From assembly GCF_900155525.1 (NCBI RefSeq), contig NZ_LT706951.1, positions 256,129 through 320,128 of the forward strand: a stretch of DNA of 64,000 nucleotides, given 5' to 3'. Below are positions 33,901 to 62,942 of this stretch, piece by piece (within the stretch, counting starts at the first letter, position 1; the number at the start of each line of letters is the position of its first letter). The translations under genes and the position numbers were made by a program. Under the pieces are notes generated by a model. That model was not told where the DNA came from, made no database searches, and saw only the letters and a program-made list of their open reading frames with translations. The DNA is from Mailhella massiliensis (GTDB lineage Bacteria; Desulfobacterota; Desulfovibrionia; Desulfovibrionales; Desulfovibrionaceae).

Positions 33901-33920
33901 GAGGTTTCTGCAAGGAAACC

Positions 33921-34007
33921 AGGCTTCCCTTCGGCAGTACTGACTGCATCAGGTTCCAAGGGTCAGAGGCATGATCCTCTTTCTCAGCCGTAAAGGCTCC
34001 CCTAGCT
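33921..34007 (-). promoter_or_regulatory. TPP riboswitch (THI element)
   Basis: The minus strand carries the conserved TPP aptamer pieces in order: CTAGGGGAGCC, GGCTGAGA, CTCTGACCCTTGGAACCTGA, and the closing GAAGGGAAG. A terminator follows before thiS. When thiamine pyrophosphate binds, transcription of thiSGHFE should stop. A small hairpin (33903-33920) lies between aptamer and terminator. Confidence 0.95.
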
Positions 34008-34019
34008 GGCGGACGTCTT

Positions 34020-57263: not shown

Positions 57264-58109
57264 TCAGGGAAGTGCGGGCACGGGAGGAAGCAGACCGGTG
57301 AGATCGGTTTCCCCGTGCGCGGTCATGCGTACCGGGCCGCCCACCCAGACATCCCATCCTTCGTGGCCTTGTTCCATGCGTACGGTAAGGGTACAGCCGC
57401 TGGGCTGACGAATGGCGCAGCGCGTGAGGCCGAACGCGTGGTGCAGGTTCAGGGCGCAGGCCAGCGTACCCGAGCCGCAGGCGCTTTCACGGCAGAGGGT
57501 GGCGGTATCGCGTACCCATACCACGGGGCGGAGATCGGCTCCTGCGGGATCATCGTTCAGGGGCGAAACCCACAGATGCCCCACGGCCTCCTCGTGGGAA
57601 ACGCCGCACGCCTCGCGCTGCCGGCGGCAGAAGAGGGGCAGCTCCTGTTCCGGGGGAAAGGGGCCTTCCTGTACGATGTGGGCTATGCCGGGCACCCGGA
57701 TGAGGCGCAGACCTCCGGGAAAAAACTCCGGCTCGGGCAGGGAGGAAAAGTGCAGGCAGGCTTCGGCAAAGGGCAGGGAGTTTTCCCCGAAGAGCACGCG
57801 CACGGCCACGTCGCCCGGTACGCCGGAAACTTCCACCTTGCCTTCGCATACGTCGCCTTTCCGGGAAAGAAGGTTTTGCACGGCAAGCAGCACGGCGAAG
57901 GAACGTGTGGCATTGAGGCAGAACTCTCCGCCCATCATGTCCAGCCGGGGCTTTTCCGAAAGGCGTACATAGCCCACCTGTTCCGCTCCGATATGCTGCC
58001 CGTCCATGACCGCGCCCGCCGCCGGAACGCGAAGCGGCTGCGGGAAGTCTTCGGCCCGCAGAAGTATGGTGGGGTTTCCGCCCGGAGTCATTTTCCAGAA
58101 TTCGTACAT
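57264..58109 (-). CDS. DapF-fold amino acid epimerase/racemase
   Basis: A 281-residue protein with the two-cysteine diaminopimelate epimerase fold. The catalytic pair is Cys64 (MMGGEFCLNATRSF) and Cys211 (SACGSGTLACAL). Standard DapF has MCGNGxRC and CGTGACA at these sites and opens MKFTKMHGAGNDF; here the opening is MYEFWKMTPGGNPTIL. These changes resemble DapF-like racemases of other amino acids such as the histidine racemase CntK. The ATG at 58109 follows AAGGA. It lies 256 bases after the HesB-like genes on the same strand. True DapF activity is possible but not certain. Confidence 0.8.
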   Translation of the reverse strand: MYEFWKMTPGGNPTILLRAEDFPQPLRVPAAGAVMDGQHIGAEQVGYVRLSEKPRLDMMGGEFCLNATRSFAVLLAVQNLLSRKGDVCEGKVEVSGVPGDVAVRVLFGENSLPFAEACLHFSSLPEPEFFPGGLRLIRVPGIAHIVQEGPFPPEQELPLFCRRQREACGVSHEEAVGHLWVSPLNDDPAGADLRPVVWVRDTATLCRESACGSGTLACALNLHHAFGLTRCAIRQPSGCTLTVRMEQGHEGWDVWVGGPVRMTAHGETDLTGLLPPVPALP

Positions 58110-58227
58110 ACCTGTTCCTTGAAGCGGCCTTTCCGCCGGAACGTCACCGGCATGGAAAGCATCGTCTTTCGCCGTATCCGCATTCCCTGCGGCGCAGGTT
58201 CCGGGTGGGGCGCTTTTGTGCGGAGAA

Positions 58228-58248
58228 CCTCGGCACGGGGTGCCGAGG
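58228..58248 (-). terminator. Hairpin between HesB-like and DapF-like genes
   Basis: CCTCGGCA (58228-58235) pairs with TGCCGAGG (58241-58248) around five bases; on the minus strand TTCTC follows. A weak terminator or processing site. Confidence 0.45.
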
Positions 58249-58365
58249 GAAAAGGGAAAGGCCGCCATGCTTGCGCACGGCGGCCCGTCATGCGGGATCT
58301 TCCCCCGCGGAAGGTGACGCGCAGCCGCTTACGGTTTTACCGGAAGAGCGGCTCCGCCTGCGGCA

Positions 58366-58701
58366 TCAGTGGTGGCAACCGCCGCCGCAGGTGCCGGTGC
58401 CGCAGCTGGAGCAGCCGCAGCCGCCCATGCTGGGCAGGGGGATTTCAGGGGTGACGAGGAAGCCCATGGGGCTGGCATCGACCGTGGCTCCGCCTATGGT
58501 AGCCCACAGTTCCTTGGTCGCGCAGAAGGTATAACCATCCTGCTCGGTGACGAAATCCTGTTCGTTGGGTTCGTCGAGAGCAAGGCCGATACGGGGACCG
58601 CTGCACCCGCCGGGAGCGAGGTACAGACGGATGGCGGATTTTTCCTTGTCGGCGAAAAAGGCGTCGAGTTCGGTGCGGGCGCTTTCGGTGAGAGTAAACA
58701 C
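58366..58701 (-). CDS. HesB/IscA-like protein, cysteine form
   Basis: A 111-residue HesB/IscA-like protein, cytoplasmic. The motif LAPGGCSGPRIGLALDEP has Cys exactly where the neighbouring paralogue has a UGA codon. Later FCATKELWATIGGATVDASP and a Cys-rich tail (GGCGCSSCGTGTCGGGCHH) may hold iron or a cluster. I chose GTG 58701, preceded by GGAG six bases upstream and matching the N terminus of the paralogue; ATG 58728 would add nine residues and has a poorer site. The Sec gene ends 67 bases upstream. Confidence 0.88.
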   Translation of the reverse strand: MFTLTESARTELDAFFADKEKSAIRLYLAPGGCSGPRIGLALDEPNEQDFVTEQDGYTFCATKELWATIGGATVDASPMGFLVTPEIPLPSMGGCGCSSCGTGTCGGGCHH

Positions 58702-58768
58702 AGTGTGCTCCGTTGAGTAAAAGGTCATATGGGGATCACTCCCCAGAAAACCTTGGAAGCTTACGGTA

Positions 58769-59086
58769 TCAGTGGCTTCCGCAGCTGCTTCCGCAGGAAC
58801 CGCAGCTGCTCCCGCCCTGAAGCGGGATTTCCGGGTCGACGATGAAGCCCATATAGCTCACGTCGATTTTTACGCCGCCGATGCGTTCCAGCAGCGAAGA
58901 TTCCAAACAGAAGGTGAAACCGTTGACTTCAAAGGCCTTGTCGTTGTCGGTAGGCTCATCCAGAGCCAGGGCGAGACGGGGGCCGCTTCAACCGCCGGGG
59001 GCCAGATAGACGCGGATGCCGGCTTTGGGCTTGTCGGCGAAAAAGGCCTCAAGTTCCTGCCGGGCAGCATCGGAAAGATGAATCAT
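58769..59086 (-). CDS. HesB/IscA-like selenoprotein (in-frame UGA as Sec33)
   Basis: A 105-residue HesB-like protein whose frame is interrupted by one TGA (58990-58988, minus strand). Reading it as selenocysteine gives LAPGG-U-SGPRLALALDEP, matching the Cys paralogue just downstream. The remaining frame continues without stops to FTFCLESSLLERIGG, DVSYMGFIVDPEIPL and a Cys-rich tail to a second TGA at 58771-58769. GGAG precedes ATG 59086. A SECIS-like hairpin lies in the coding region just after the UGA. HesB-like selenoproteins are a known family. Selenium genes (selA, selB, selC) must lie elsewhere. Confidence 0.88.
58953..58967 (-). promoter_or_regulatory. Candidate bacterial SECIS element
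   Basis: GGCTC (58967-58963) pairs with GAGCC (58957-58953) around TGGAT, the loop beginning 25 bases after the UGA codon. Bacterial SECIS hairpins have their loop about 16-37 bases beyond the UGA with a G near its start, which this has. An outer GTC/GAC pairing may extend it. Confidence 0.55.
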
Positions 59087-59217
59087 GTATATCTCCAAAA
59101 GAAATGGGTTTGGGTAAAAATAGGAACGGTTCTTGTCTTTGTCAATGGAAGGAAGGCGCTTTTCCTCTTTTTTGTGCCTGAGCCTTCCGCTTTGTACAAA
59201 GACCGGCCCGCTTTTGT

Positions 59218-60408
59218 TTACGAAAGGGCGGCGCGAAGGCGCCCGAACCCTTCCTCCAGATCGGCCTTCAGGTCTTCCACGTCTTCCAGACCTATGGCGT
59301 AGCGCACGAGGGTGCAGTTGTCGTCGTTCCACACCGGGGCAATGCGGTTCAGCGCGGTGCGTTCGGGGTGACAGTGTTCCACGAGGCTGTCGTATCCGCC
59401 CCAGCTTGCGCCGATGCTGAACAGCTTGTAGCCGTTGAGCATGGCCGCCACCGCCTTTCTTTCCATTTTGGGCAGCACGATGGAAAAGAGCGAGCCGCCC
59501 CCCGTGAAGTCGCGTGCCCAGAGGGCATGGCCGGGATGGCTTTCCAGCGGAGGATAGAGCACCTGAAGCACTTCGGGCCGCGTTTCCAGCCAGCGGGCCA
59601 GTTCCAGAGCCTGGGCGAACTGCCGTTCCATGCGTACCTTCATGGTACGCAGGCCGCGCAGGGCGAGGTAGCAGTCGTCGGGAGAGGCTATTTCCCCCAT
59701 CTGCACGCAGAAGGCGCGCATACGGAGGTACAGTTCTCTGGTGCGGGCCGTGATGATGCCCATGACGAGGTCGGAGTGTCCGGCGATGAATTTTGTGGCC
59801 GCTTCCACGCAGATGTCCACGCCCGCGAGCAGCGGCTTGAAGTAGAGGGGGCCTGCCCAGGTGTTGTCCATGATGACCACGGCTCCGTGGGCGTGCGCGG
59901 CCTGGACTATGGCCGGAATGTCCTGCATTTCAAAGGTGAGGGAACCCGGCGCTTCCGTATATACGACGCGGGTGTTCGCCTTGATGAGCACGTCTATGCC
60001 TGCGCCGATGGTCGGGTCGTAATAGGTGGTTTCCACCCCGAAGCGGCGCAGTATGCTTTCGCAGAACATGCGCTGCGGACCGTAGACGCTGTCGGGCATG
60101 AGCACATGGTCGCCCGCGCCCACAAAGGCAAGGAGCGACTGCGTGCACGCGGCAAGGCCGGAGCTTGTCACCATGGAGCCTGCGCCCTGTTCCAGGCGGT
60201 TTACGGCGTCGCACAGGGCGAAGGCGTTTTCCGTGCCCAGAGCGCCGTAACAGACGTTGCGGAACTTGGCGTCGCCCGCCTCATTGGCGTCGAATTCCTC
60301 CAGCGTGGGGGAAACGATGGTGGATGCGCGGTGCACCGGCATGTTGACGGGGCCGCCGACGCGCAGAGGCGCGCGCCCGGCGTGCGTGAGTATGGTGGAA
60401 TCCTTCAT
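59218..60408 (-). CDS. metC: Cystathionine beta-lyase-like PLP enzyme
   Basis: A 396-residue Cys/Met-metabolism PLP enzyme. Signatures are VTSSGLAACTQSLLAFVGAGD, DSVYGPQRMFCESIL, IMDNTWAGPLYFKPL and the PLP lysine segment ATKFIAGHSDLVMG, with a C-terminal SIGASWGGYDSLVEH pattern typical of cystathionine beta-lyase (MetC). It cleaves cystathionine to homocysteine, or cysteine to sulfide. The ATG at 60408 follows GAGGAA. It is far from metA/metY. Since O-acetylhomoserine sulfhydrylation is available, it may serve as a cysteine desulfhydrase. Confidence 0.88.
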   Translation of the reverse strand: MKDSTILTHAGRAPLRVGGPVNMPVHRASTIVSPTLEEFDANEAGDAKFRNVCYGALGTENAFALCDAVNRLEQGAGSMVTSSGLAACTQSLLAFVGAGDHVLMPDSVYGPQRMFCESILRRFGVETTYYDPTIGAGIDVLIKANTRVVYTEAPGSLTFEMQDIPAIVQAAHAHGAVVIMDNTWAGPLYFKPLLAGVDICVEAATKFIAGHSDLVMGIITARTRELYLRMRAFCVQMGEIASPDDCYLALRGLRTMKVRMERQFAQALELARWLETRPEVLQVLYPPLESHPGHALWARDFTGGGSLFSIVLPKMERKAVAAMLNGYKLFSIGASWGGYDSLVEHCHPERTALNRIAPVWNDDNCTLVRYAIGLEDVEDLKADLEEGFGRLRAALS

Positions 60409-61661: not shown

Positions 61662-62942
61662 ATGGAATATCATGTGGAGAAAGGGGAAGGCGGAGCTTGC
61701 CGCCTCACCTGCTTTTTTTCTGCCGCGGACGTGACAGCCGAATGGAAGAAGGCCGCCGCACCCTTTGCGTCTTCCTTCCGCATGGCGGGCTTCCGGCCGG
61801 GCAGGGCCCCTCTGGAAGTGCTGGAGCGGCAGTTCGGGCGGCAGATTGCCGAGGAAACCACCGACGCACTGGTCGGACGCGGCGTGAAGAAGGCCCTTTC
61901 TGCGGAAGGGCTGCTTCCCGTCACGGCCTTCACCTATGAAGGGGAGAATGCTCTTCGGGGACGGGATTTCAGGTTCAGCGTTTCCTTCGGCGTACTTCCC
62001 GACGCGGAGACTCCAGATTTTTCTTCCCTGCGGATTGAAGGAAGGATTCCTGCGGCCGATGCGGGACAGGATGCCGCAGCCCTCAGGGACATGCTCGGCC
62101 GCATGGCCGAAAGAGTGCCGGTGAAGGAAGGGCGTCCGCAGGACGGCGATATCGTGCAGGCGGACGTGACGGGCCGTATCGACGGCCGTGTGGTGCCCGG
62201 CATGAATACGGGCCCCTGCCGTATGCGTCTCATGCCGCTGATGCCGGGAGAAAAGGCGCCCGATCTGGACCCCGTGATCCGCAGTCTGAGCATCGGCGAA
62301 ACCGGTACCGGTACGACGGTATGCCCGGACAACTATCCCGATCCCTCCCTGCGCGGCAGGGATATAGAACTGACCGTGACGCTCCGTTCCGTGGAAAGGG
62401 AAATACTTCCTCCGCTGACGGAGGAAACGGCGCGCCGTCTCGGTTTTTCCGGTGTGGAAGCGCTGGAGAACGCCGCCCATGAGCTGGCTCTGGAAAGGAG
62501 CGGAGCACGCCTTCATATGGAGGCGAAGCGCGAACTTATGGAGCGCCTGGAAGCCTGGGAAGGCGTGGAGGCCCCTTCCTGCCTTGTGGAGCATTGTCGT
62601 CGCGAAGCCATGCGCCGTTCCCGTCAGTATCTGCAGAGCAGCTATGAGTCCCCTGACAAGCTCAGGGAAATTCTCGCCCTCATGAAGGAGGAAGCGGAAG
62701 AGACGGCGCGGAAGAAAGCCGTGAGGCGTATGCTTCTGCTCGGCTGGGCGCGGGGAGAAGGCCTGGAAGTGCGGGATGCGGAACTGGAAAGAGTGCTTGC
62801 CGGGCGTGCCGCCGCGCAGAACATGGATGCCGCATCCTATGCCCGCAGTCTTGCCCGCGGGGGCGATATATACGAAATGCGCGCCGCCATGCTGGAAGAG
62901 CGTGCCCTGGAAGCGCTGCTTGCGCGTGTGCTCAGGCCGTAG
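61662..62942 (+). CDS. Trigger factor-like ribosome-associated chaperone, first copy
   Basis: A 426-residue trigger factor: the ribosome-binding N domain with the GFRPGRAP loop near residue 44, a PPIase-like middle domain (VQADVTGRIDGRVVPGMNTG, then CPDNYPDPSLRGRDIELTVT), and a helical C domain with LPPLTEETARRLGF. The family binds the ribosome exit tunnel and folds nascent chains. The middle domain differs from E. coli Tig in its FKBP-like loop, so PPIase activity is uncertain. It is followed after 186 bases by a second full-type trigger factor. Confidence 0.9.
   Translation: MEYHVEKGEGGACRLTCFFSAADVTAEWKKAAAPFASSFRMAGFRPGRAPLEVLERQFGRQIAEETTDALVGRGVKKALSAEGLLPVTAFTYEGENALRGRDFRFSVSFGVLPDAETPDFSSLRIEGRIPAADAGQDAAALRDMLGRMAERVPVKEGRPQDGDIVQADVTGRIDGRVVPGMNTGPCRMRLMPLMPGEKAPDLDPVIRSLSIGETGTGTTVCPDNYPDPSLRGRDIELTVTLRSVEREILPPLTEETARRLGFSGVEALENAAHELALERSGARLHMEAKRELMERLEAWEGVEAPSCLVEHCRREAMRRSRQYLQSSYESPDKLREILALMKEEAEETARKKAVRRMLLLGWARGEGLEVRDAELERVLAGRAAAQNMDAASYARSLARGGDIYEMRAAMLEERALEALLARVLRP

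Follow-up and report, generated by a model that had tools for sequence, protein, structure and literature searches.

A predicted HesB/IscA-like selenoprotein gene with a tandem cysteine-containing twin

The presence of HesB-like selenoproteins in Desulfovibrio has been on record since 2006, when D. vulgaris and D. desulfuricans were both listed as having them (PMC1794560). The same paper counted 11 HesB-like selenoproteins and two Sec-to-Cys conversions, and it described a Cys-containing HesB-like gene from Desulfitobacterium that retains a SECIS-like remnant. Elsewhere the family is listed with the motif UxGP (PMC13188914). In Methanococcus maripaludis, a HesB-like selenoprotein was identified by mutagenesis together with 75Se labeling; its function is called unclear there, and an unpublished observation is quoted that nitrogen fixation is unimpaired in a disruption mutant (PMC11097638). 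A curated NCBIfam model for the family (NF038090, IscA_HesB_Se) already exists.

Here we describe a locus within a 64,000-nucleotide stretch of DNA (the window) that carries a frame of this type, interrupted by an in-frame TGA, together with a closely spaced Cys-containing paralog (Table 1). We conclude that the interrupted frame is almost certainly a genuine HesB/IscA-like selenoprotein gene and a new member of a known family; this degree of confidence covers the selenoprotein claim alone. The gene family is not new. What seems to be new, judging from the literature that we searched, is that a Cys twin is frequently found in tandem and that the twins do not appear to trace back to a single old duplication.

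The selenoproteins of D. vulgaris and D. desulfuricans appear to be of the same kind and are likewise from deltaproteobacterial sulfate reducers, a likeness drawn from their description rather than from their sequences (PMC1794560). Tandem Sec/Cys twins do not appear in the passages of that paper that deal with these Desulfovibrio proteins. Also, we found nothing on tandem Sec/Cys HesB twins in the literature that we searched, whose scope excluded most subscription papers. The M. maripaludis protein is likewise HesB-like and distantly related to IscA (PMC11097638), but it is archaeal, and in archaea the SECIS element lies in the untranslated region past the gene (PMC12013277). M. maripaludis does resemble our organism in having Sec/Cys isoform pairs, that is, both versions of one protein in one genome, and HrsM represses its Cys isogenes (in the frc and vhc operons) as long as the selenium supply is adequate (PMC11097638). 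Unlike those isogenes, the Cys twin described here lies directly downstream of the Sec gene. Finally, NF038090 matches the Sec gene and its twin alike over their whole length, and nothing excludes their membership; however, it is a model of a single protein, so the tandem arrangement lies outside what it describes.

Table 1. Coordinates of the predicted selenoprotein gene, its Cys twin, and associated features in the window
Feature	Position	Strand	Remarks
Predicted HesB/IscA-like selenoprotein gene	58769..59086	-	ATG start (59086-59084); 105 residues plus stop (TGA, 58771-58769); Sec predicted as residue 33
In-frame TGA, codon 33	58988..58990	-	matches the SGCSG Cys of E. coli IscA in the alignment
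Shine-Dalgarno-like GGAG plus ATG, Sec gene	59084..59096	-	
SECIS-like hairpin GGCUC-UGGAU-GAGCC	58953..58967	-	20 nt past the UGA
Cys-rich C-terminal tail GGSSCGSCGSSCGSH, residues 91-105	58772..58816	-	model confidence low for residues 93-105
Tandem Cys paralog	58366..58701	-	GTG start (58701-58699); TGC (Cys) at 58605-58603; stop 58368-58366
Shine-Dalgarno-like CGGAG plus GTG, Cys paralog	58699..58712	-	
Promoter-like TTGACA-17-TATTTT	59115..59145	-	motif at 59145-59117; TTGACAAA and GTTCCTAT invariant in 14 related loci
Intergenic hairpin TGGGGAGTGATCCCCA (Sec-Cys gap)	58730..58745	-	similar hairpins in related loci

A preliminary description of this DNA had reported a frame that stops at a TGA in the context LAPGG-stop-SGPR and then continues for 72 codons with clear HesB-like sequence, a paralog 67 bases away with Cys at the corresponding site, and a SECIS-like hairpin beginning 20 bases after the UGA. 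Every one of these figures proved exact, and the HesB-like character is borne out by NF038090, which the read-through protein matches at 106.5 bits (cut-off 85; the sequence scored had one extra residue from the final TGA). If the TGA were taken as a stop, then the product would have only 32 residues. The frame past the TGA is protein-coding and is under purifying selection: across Mailhella-type loci (14 loci, 11 of them distinct, 91 pairs), dN/dS of the Sec gene is 0.144 before the TGA and 0.114 after it. The corresponding values for the Cys twin in the 14 loci are 0.121 and 0.120.

To compare the site across the family, we used 98 loci (L024-L121) plus the window, from which 184 family copies were extracted; the 98 loci are mostly top-scoring matches rather than a random sample, and a few stretches are duplicated from two collections. 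The site codon is TGA in 81 copies, Cys in 90, and another residue in 13 (E in five and A, D, S, and Q in two each), and it is never TAA or TAG. An in-frame UGA opposite the Cys of homologs, which is the usual mark of a bacterial selenoprotein, is thus found here. The expectation in the preliminary description that homologs have either Cys or Sec at this site fails for the 13 copies and holds for the others; all 13 adjoin a Sec copy at the same locus.

The hairpin distinguishes the two forms sharply. After dropping copies that were identical over the first 75 bases (which reduced the Sec genes from 81 to 76 and the Cys genes from 90 to 87), a perfect 5-bp stem in a fixed register was present in all 76 distinct Sec genes, versus 2 of the 87 distinct Cys genes. 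Among 200 rounds of synonymous shuffling, the stem arose on average in 3.13 of the 76 Sec genes and never in more than 9 (mean 1.2 and maximum 5 for the Cys genes). Codons 8, 9, and 11 past the TGA are nearly fixed in the Sec genes (GCT in 75/76, CTG in 76/76, and GAG in 75/76) and are mixed in the Cys genes (15/87, 50/87, and 26/87, respectively). The hairpin also lies shortly past the UGA and has a G in its apical loop, as expected of a SECIS (the loop is UGGAY; the G in the loop is named in a legend of PMC1794560). The two Cys genes with a perfect stem are in L024 and L057, where it is possible that the stem is a remnant of a Sec ancestor or that it arose by chance.

Within the stem, all 360 of 360 cells pair (72 distinct rows), as compared to 19-46% of cells if the structure is slid along the alignment. 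The stem varies so little that genuine covariation is sparse: two of the five pairs have changes on both sides, in three cells, which none of 500 shuffles matched. As folding of the single sequence is unremarkable (z = −0.78 for 51 nt from the TGA, with 43 of 200 shuffles folding equally well), the structure is evident by comparison alone. No Rfam match overlapped the hairpin. A model of the hairpin (R1), trained on a set that included the Sec gene, gave 65.8 bits for that gene and 12.7 bits for the Cys twin. When run against the organism's own genome, R1 found no second convincing selenoprotein gene (the next match was at 18 bits, E = 0.2), but the model is specific to the HesB-like family, so this is not a count of the genome's selenoproteins.

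In bacteria, SelB carrying Sec-tRNA(Sec) is recruited to the ribosome by the SECIS, and SelA makes Sec-tRNA from selenophosphate that is supplied by SelD. The organism's own genome (99.4% complete, 28 contigs) encodes all of these. SelA scores 507.9 bits and SelD, whose gene also contains one in-frame TGA, 299 bits; a single SelB (346.8 bits) and a single tRNA-Sec (78.1 bits, anticodon TCA) exceed their cut-offs. We also surveyed 199 genomes of the family, our own included, with the family taken to be Desulfovibrionaceae from the labels of the nearest loci. We used SelA alone as the marker because searches for SelB and for tRNA-Sec each match below-cut-off relatives in 14 of 14 control genomes. 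NF038090 matched 185 of the 199 genomes at E = 0.001 (180 over the cut-off), and SelA was found in 162. The Sec form, defined as a match that contains TGA and scores 80 bits or more, was present in 146 of the 162 genomes with SelA, versus 14 of the 37 without it. At 90% completeness or above, the figures were 129 of 136 versus 2 of 12, which leaves seven such genomes with SelA and no TGA form.

Twelve of the 14 genomes that have the TGA form but lack SelA are less than 90% complete. The other two, G124 and G174, are at least 90% complete but are in about 820 and 220 contigs, respectively, and they may have lost selA in assembly. The TGA form is found in 14 of the 16 genomes of our organism's genus, including two without a SelA match (G184, 88% complete, and G197, 84% complete). 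As for the remaining two, G042 has SelA, but its sole NF038090 match (at L076) lacks an intact hairpin, codes for Cys at the site, and groups with the Cys twins in a quick tree; in G177, neither SelA nor NF038090 gave a match. A separate observation is that the 2.5-Mb genome G001 has nine NF038090 matches, of which three weak ones have one internal TGA.

Could the TGA be something other than a selenocysteine codon? If the TGA stemmed from faulty sequencing or assembly, or from a nonsense mutation of recent date, then the codon would really be TGC or TGT or the gene would be a pseudogene. The assembly is in 28 contigs and the Cys twin does have TGC at the site, but the ten nearest loci, which are on other contigs, all have TGA at this codon (nine are labeled Mailhella sp. 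and one Desulfovibrionaceae in genome_contigs; identity 87-97%), which makes a base error unlikely. Given also that TGA but neither TAA nor TAG recurs across the family, that dN/dS is still low past the site, and that the hairpin is fixed, we consider this explanation to be extremely improbable. Alternatively, the UGA could be read in some other way, such as by a near-cognate tRNA or as Trp or Cys, in which case the hairpin would be a stimulator of read-through and not a SECIS. The evidence at this locus comes from sequence, which leaves some room for this idea. However, the TGA form tracks SelA, a tRNA-Sec with the anticodon TCA is present, and the non-TGA copies mostly have Cys at the site (90 of 103) and never Trp, so decoding of this kind seems very unlikely. 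The preliminary description had asked for a search for selA, selB, selC, and selD, and it had said that its selenoprotein reading would fall if selB and selC were missing from the genome or if a corrected base changed the TGA to TGC or TGT. All four genes are present and the TGA is shared by the nearest loci; its reading is upheld by the machinery, the fixed hairpin, the TGA in homologs, and the tracking with SelA.

What the predicted selenoprotein does is less clear. In a search of the genome, NF038090 matched the Sec gene at 99.3 bits, and the Cys twin reaches 90 bits, which is also over the cut-off. The general model Fe-S_biosyn (PF01521, gathering threshold 26.3 bits) is reached by the Sec protein (29.4 bits), and the twin falls short (22.0 bits). 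In contrast, the Sec protein is below the cut-offs of HesB_rel_seleno (TIGR01911, 41.5 bits versus 66.35), of the IscA equivalog (TIGR02011, 30.2 bits versus 150.6), and of the SufA and ErpA equivalogs, and the twin is likewise under the cut-offs for TIGR01911 and for the IscA, SufA, and ErpA equivalogs. The nearest solved chains by sequence are AQ_1857 and E. coli IscA (YfhF). A structural model built on an alignment of 30 family members (mean pLDDT 85.5, with residues 93-105 below 50) best matches IscA with a [2Fe-2S] cluster, IscA, and SufA. Thus, the predicted protein would share the fold of E. coli IscA and SufA and would have Sec at the position of one of their Cys; it differs from them in having Sec rather than Cys there and in having CGSCGSSC in its tail.

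From the modeled fold, we lean towards a role as an A-type Fe-S carrier-like protein. Gene neighbors, across the 99 loci, gave no support for an Fe-S role. A real selenoprotein could instead use Sec33 and the tail cysteines as a redox pair (a selenosulfide) or as a metal- or selenium-binding pair. Most prokaryotic selenoproteins are thought to be redox-active (PMC9312934), the tail is rich in Cys and is modeled with low confidence, and none of the three equivalog models (IscA, SufA, and ErpA) reaches its cut-off, all of which would suit such a role. On the other hand, IscA is matched in both fold and site, and its structure with [2Fe-2S] is among the matches, so we view the redox or binding role as a credible but less probable alternative to the carrier-like role.

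The Cys twin is separated from the Sec gene by a gap of exactly 67 bases. We chose the GTG start for the twin because GTG or ATG is aligned there in related loci and the DNA before it varies. Among the 99 loci, the arrangement is Sec-Cys in 47, Cys-Sec in 14, Sec-Cys-other in nine, Sec alone in six, and Cys alone in 18; G015 shows that the twin of a lone copy may lie at another place in the genome. The remaining five loci are two S-U, two U-Q, and one C-C-U. The nine loci with a third tandem HesB-like copy (L041, L043-L048, L050, and L052) are all Sec-Cys-third arrays, and the third copy has E, D, or A at the site and keeps the tail Cys.

The twins do not seem to derive from one old duplication, and either repeated duplication or gene conversion would fit the data. 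A careful tree, made from 24 loci (48 rows) chosen across groups among the 71 with both forms, had 14 changes of label, of which at least 10 are forced by well-supported branches. With 93 columns, the alignment is short for this purpose, so the exact number of changes is unreliable. A single Sec clade was rejected (AU test, P = 2.6 × 10−50), although this test was run after the quick tree had been seen and was not blind. In the quick tree of 172 rows, there were 21 changes for Sec, of which at least six are forced. In several genomes, the Sec copy is closest to its own Cys twin and vice versa (85% identity in L120, 82% in L024, and 80% in L030). In the Mailhella-type loci, the Sec/Cys split is older than the sampled relatives. 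We tentatively suggest, as an idea that is less likely than not, that selection favors having Sec and Cys versions next to each other. The pair would have been remade repeatedly in this bacterial family, each time by a duplication of the Sec gene after which one copy lost its SECIS (or the copies would have stayed similar through gene conversion that spares the site), and both forms would be needed, as subunits of a mixed dimer or as a hedge against a lack of selenium.

The Sec gene and its twin are probably on one transcript, given the single conserved promoter-like site and the short gap between the genes. The promoter-like site is the only one in a scan of 58250-59300, and its invariant blocks are kept in all 14 Mailhella-type loci (11 distinct), while DNA further upstream hardly aligns. 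Within the organism's own genome, the motif did not reveal a regulon (the site itself is the sole exact match, and there is one match with two mismatches). A terminator scan of the same region gave one terminator-like site (58286-58259), which is no more than in shuffled sequences. Hairpins with somewhat varied sequences occur at the same place between the two genes in the related loci (11 aligned rows); of the four predicted pairs, one is changed on both sides in two sequences and is broken in 3 of 11, so the conservation of this hairpin is suggestive only.

The most common neighbor, in 63 of the 99 loci (most of which reach about 1.5 kb past the match), is a divergent upstream gene, which we take to be PyrR-like. 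In the window and in the Mailhella-type loci, the upstream gene encodes a PLP enzyme instead, which in the window is of the Cys/Met-metabolism type. The downstream protein (57267-58268, minus strand) has no Pfam match and has relatives in the 14 Mailhella-type loci and in L076. Elsewhere in the window there are a trigger-factor-like gene (61662-62942, plus strand; Pfam Trigger_N and Trigger_C), what looks by eye like a second one next to it (63090 to the end of the window, plus strand, where it runs off), and a TPP riboswitch (33909-34013, minus strand, 65.1 bits).

To summarize the mechanism that we propose for the predicted selenoprotein, the two genes are probably transcribed together, and UGA codon 33 is almost certainly decoded as selenocysteine, as the comparisons support, with the downstream hairpin acting as the SECIS that brings SelB and Sec-tRNA(Sec) to the ribosome. 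The product would be a protein with the IscA fold in which Sec replaces the first ligand of a cluster or of iron and the Cys-rich tail supplies the others, and it would hold iron, [2Fe-2S], or reduced sulfur or selenium species for transfer; we favor this view of the product with modest confidence. The Cys twin might maintain the function when selenium is scarce, or it might be a partner subunit.

The Sec gene is an ordinary member of its family, and the wider Sec/Cys pattern matters more than this single gene. The Cys twin may have had a repeated origin in the family. The hairpin, which is nearly invariant even at synonymous sites across 76 distinct Sec genes, offers a clean natural test set for SECIS recognition. 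Also, as the genome encodes a Cys comparison protein next door, the recurring Sec/Cys twins would make the benefit of selenium to an Fe-S carrier-like protein directly testable.
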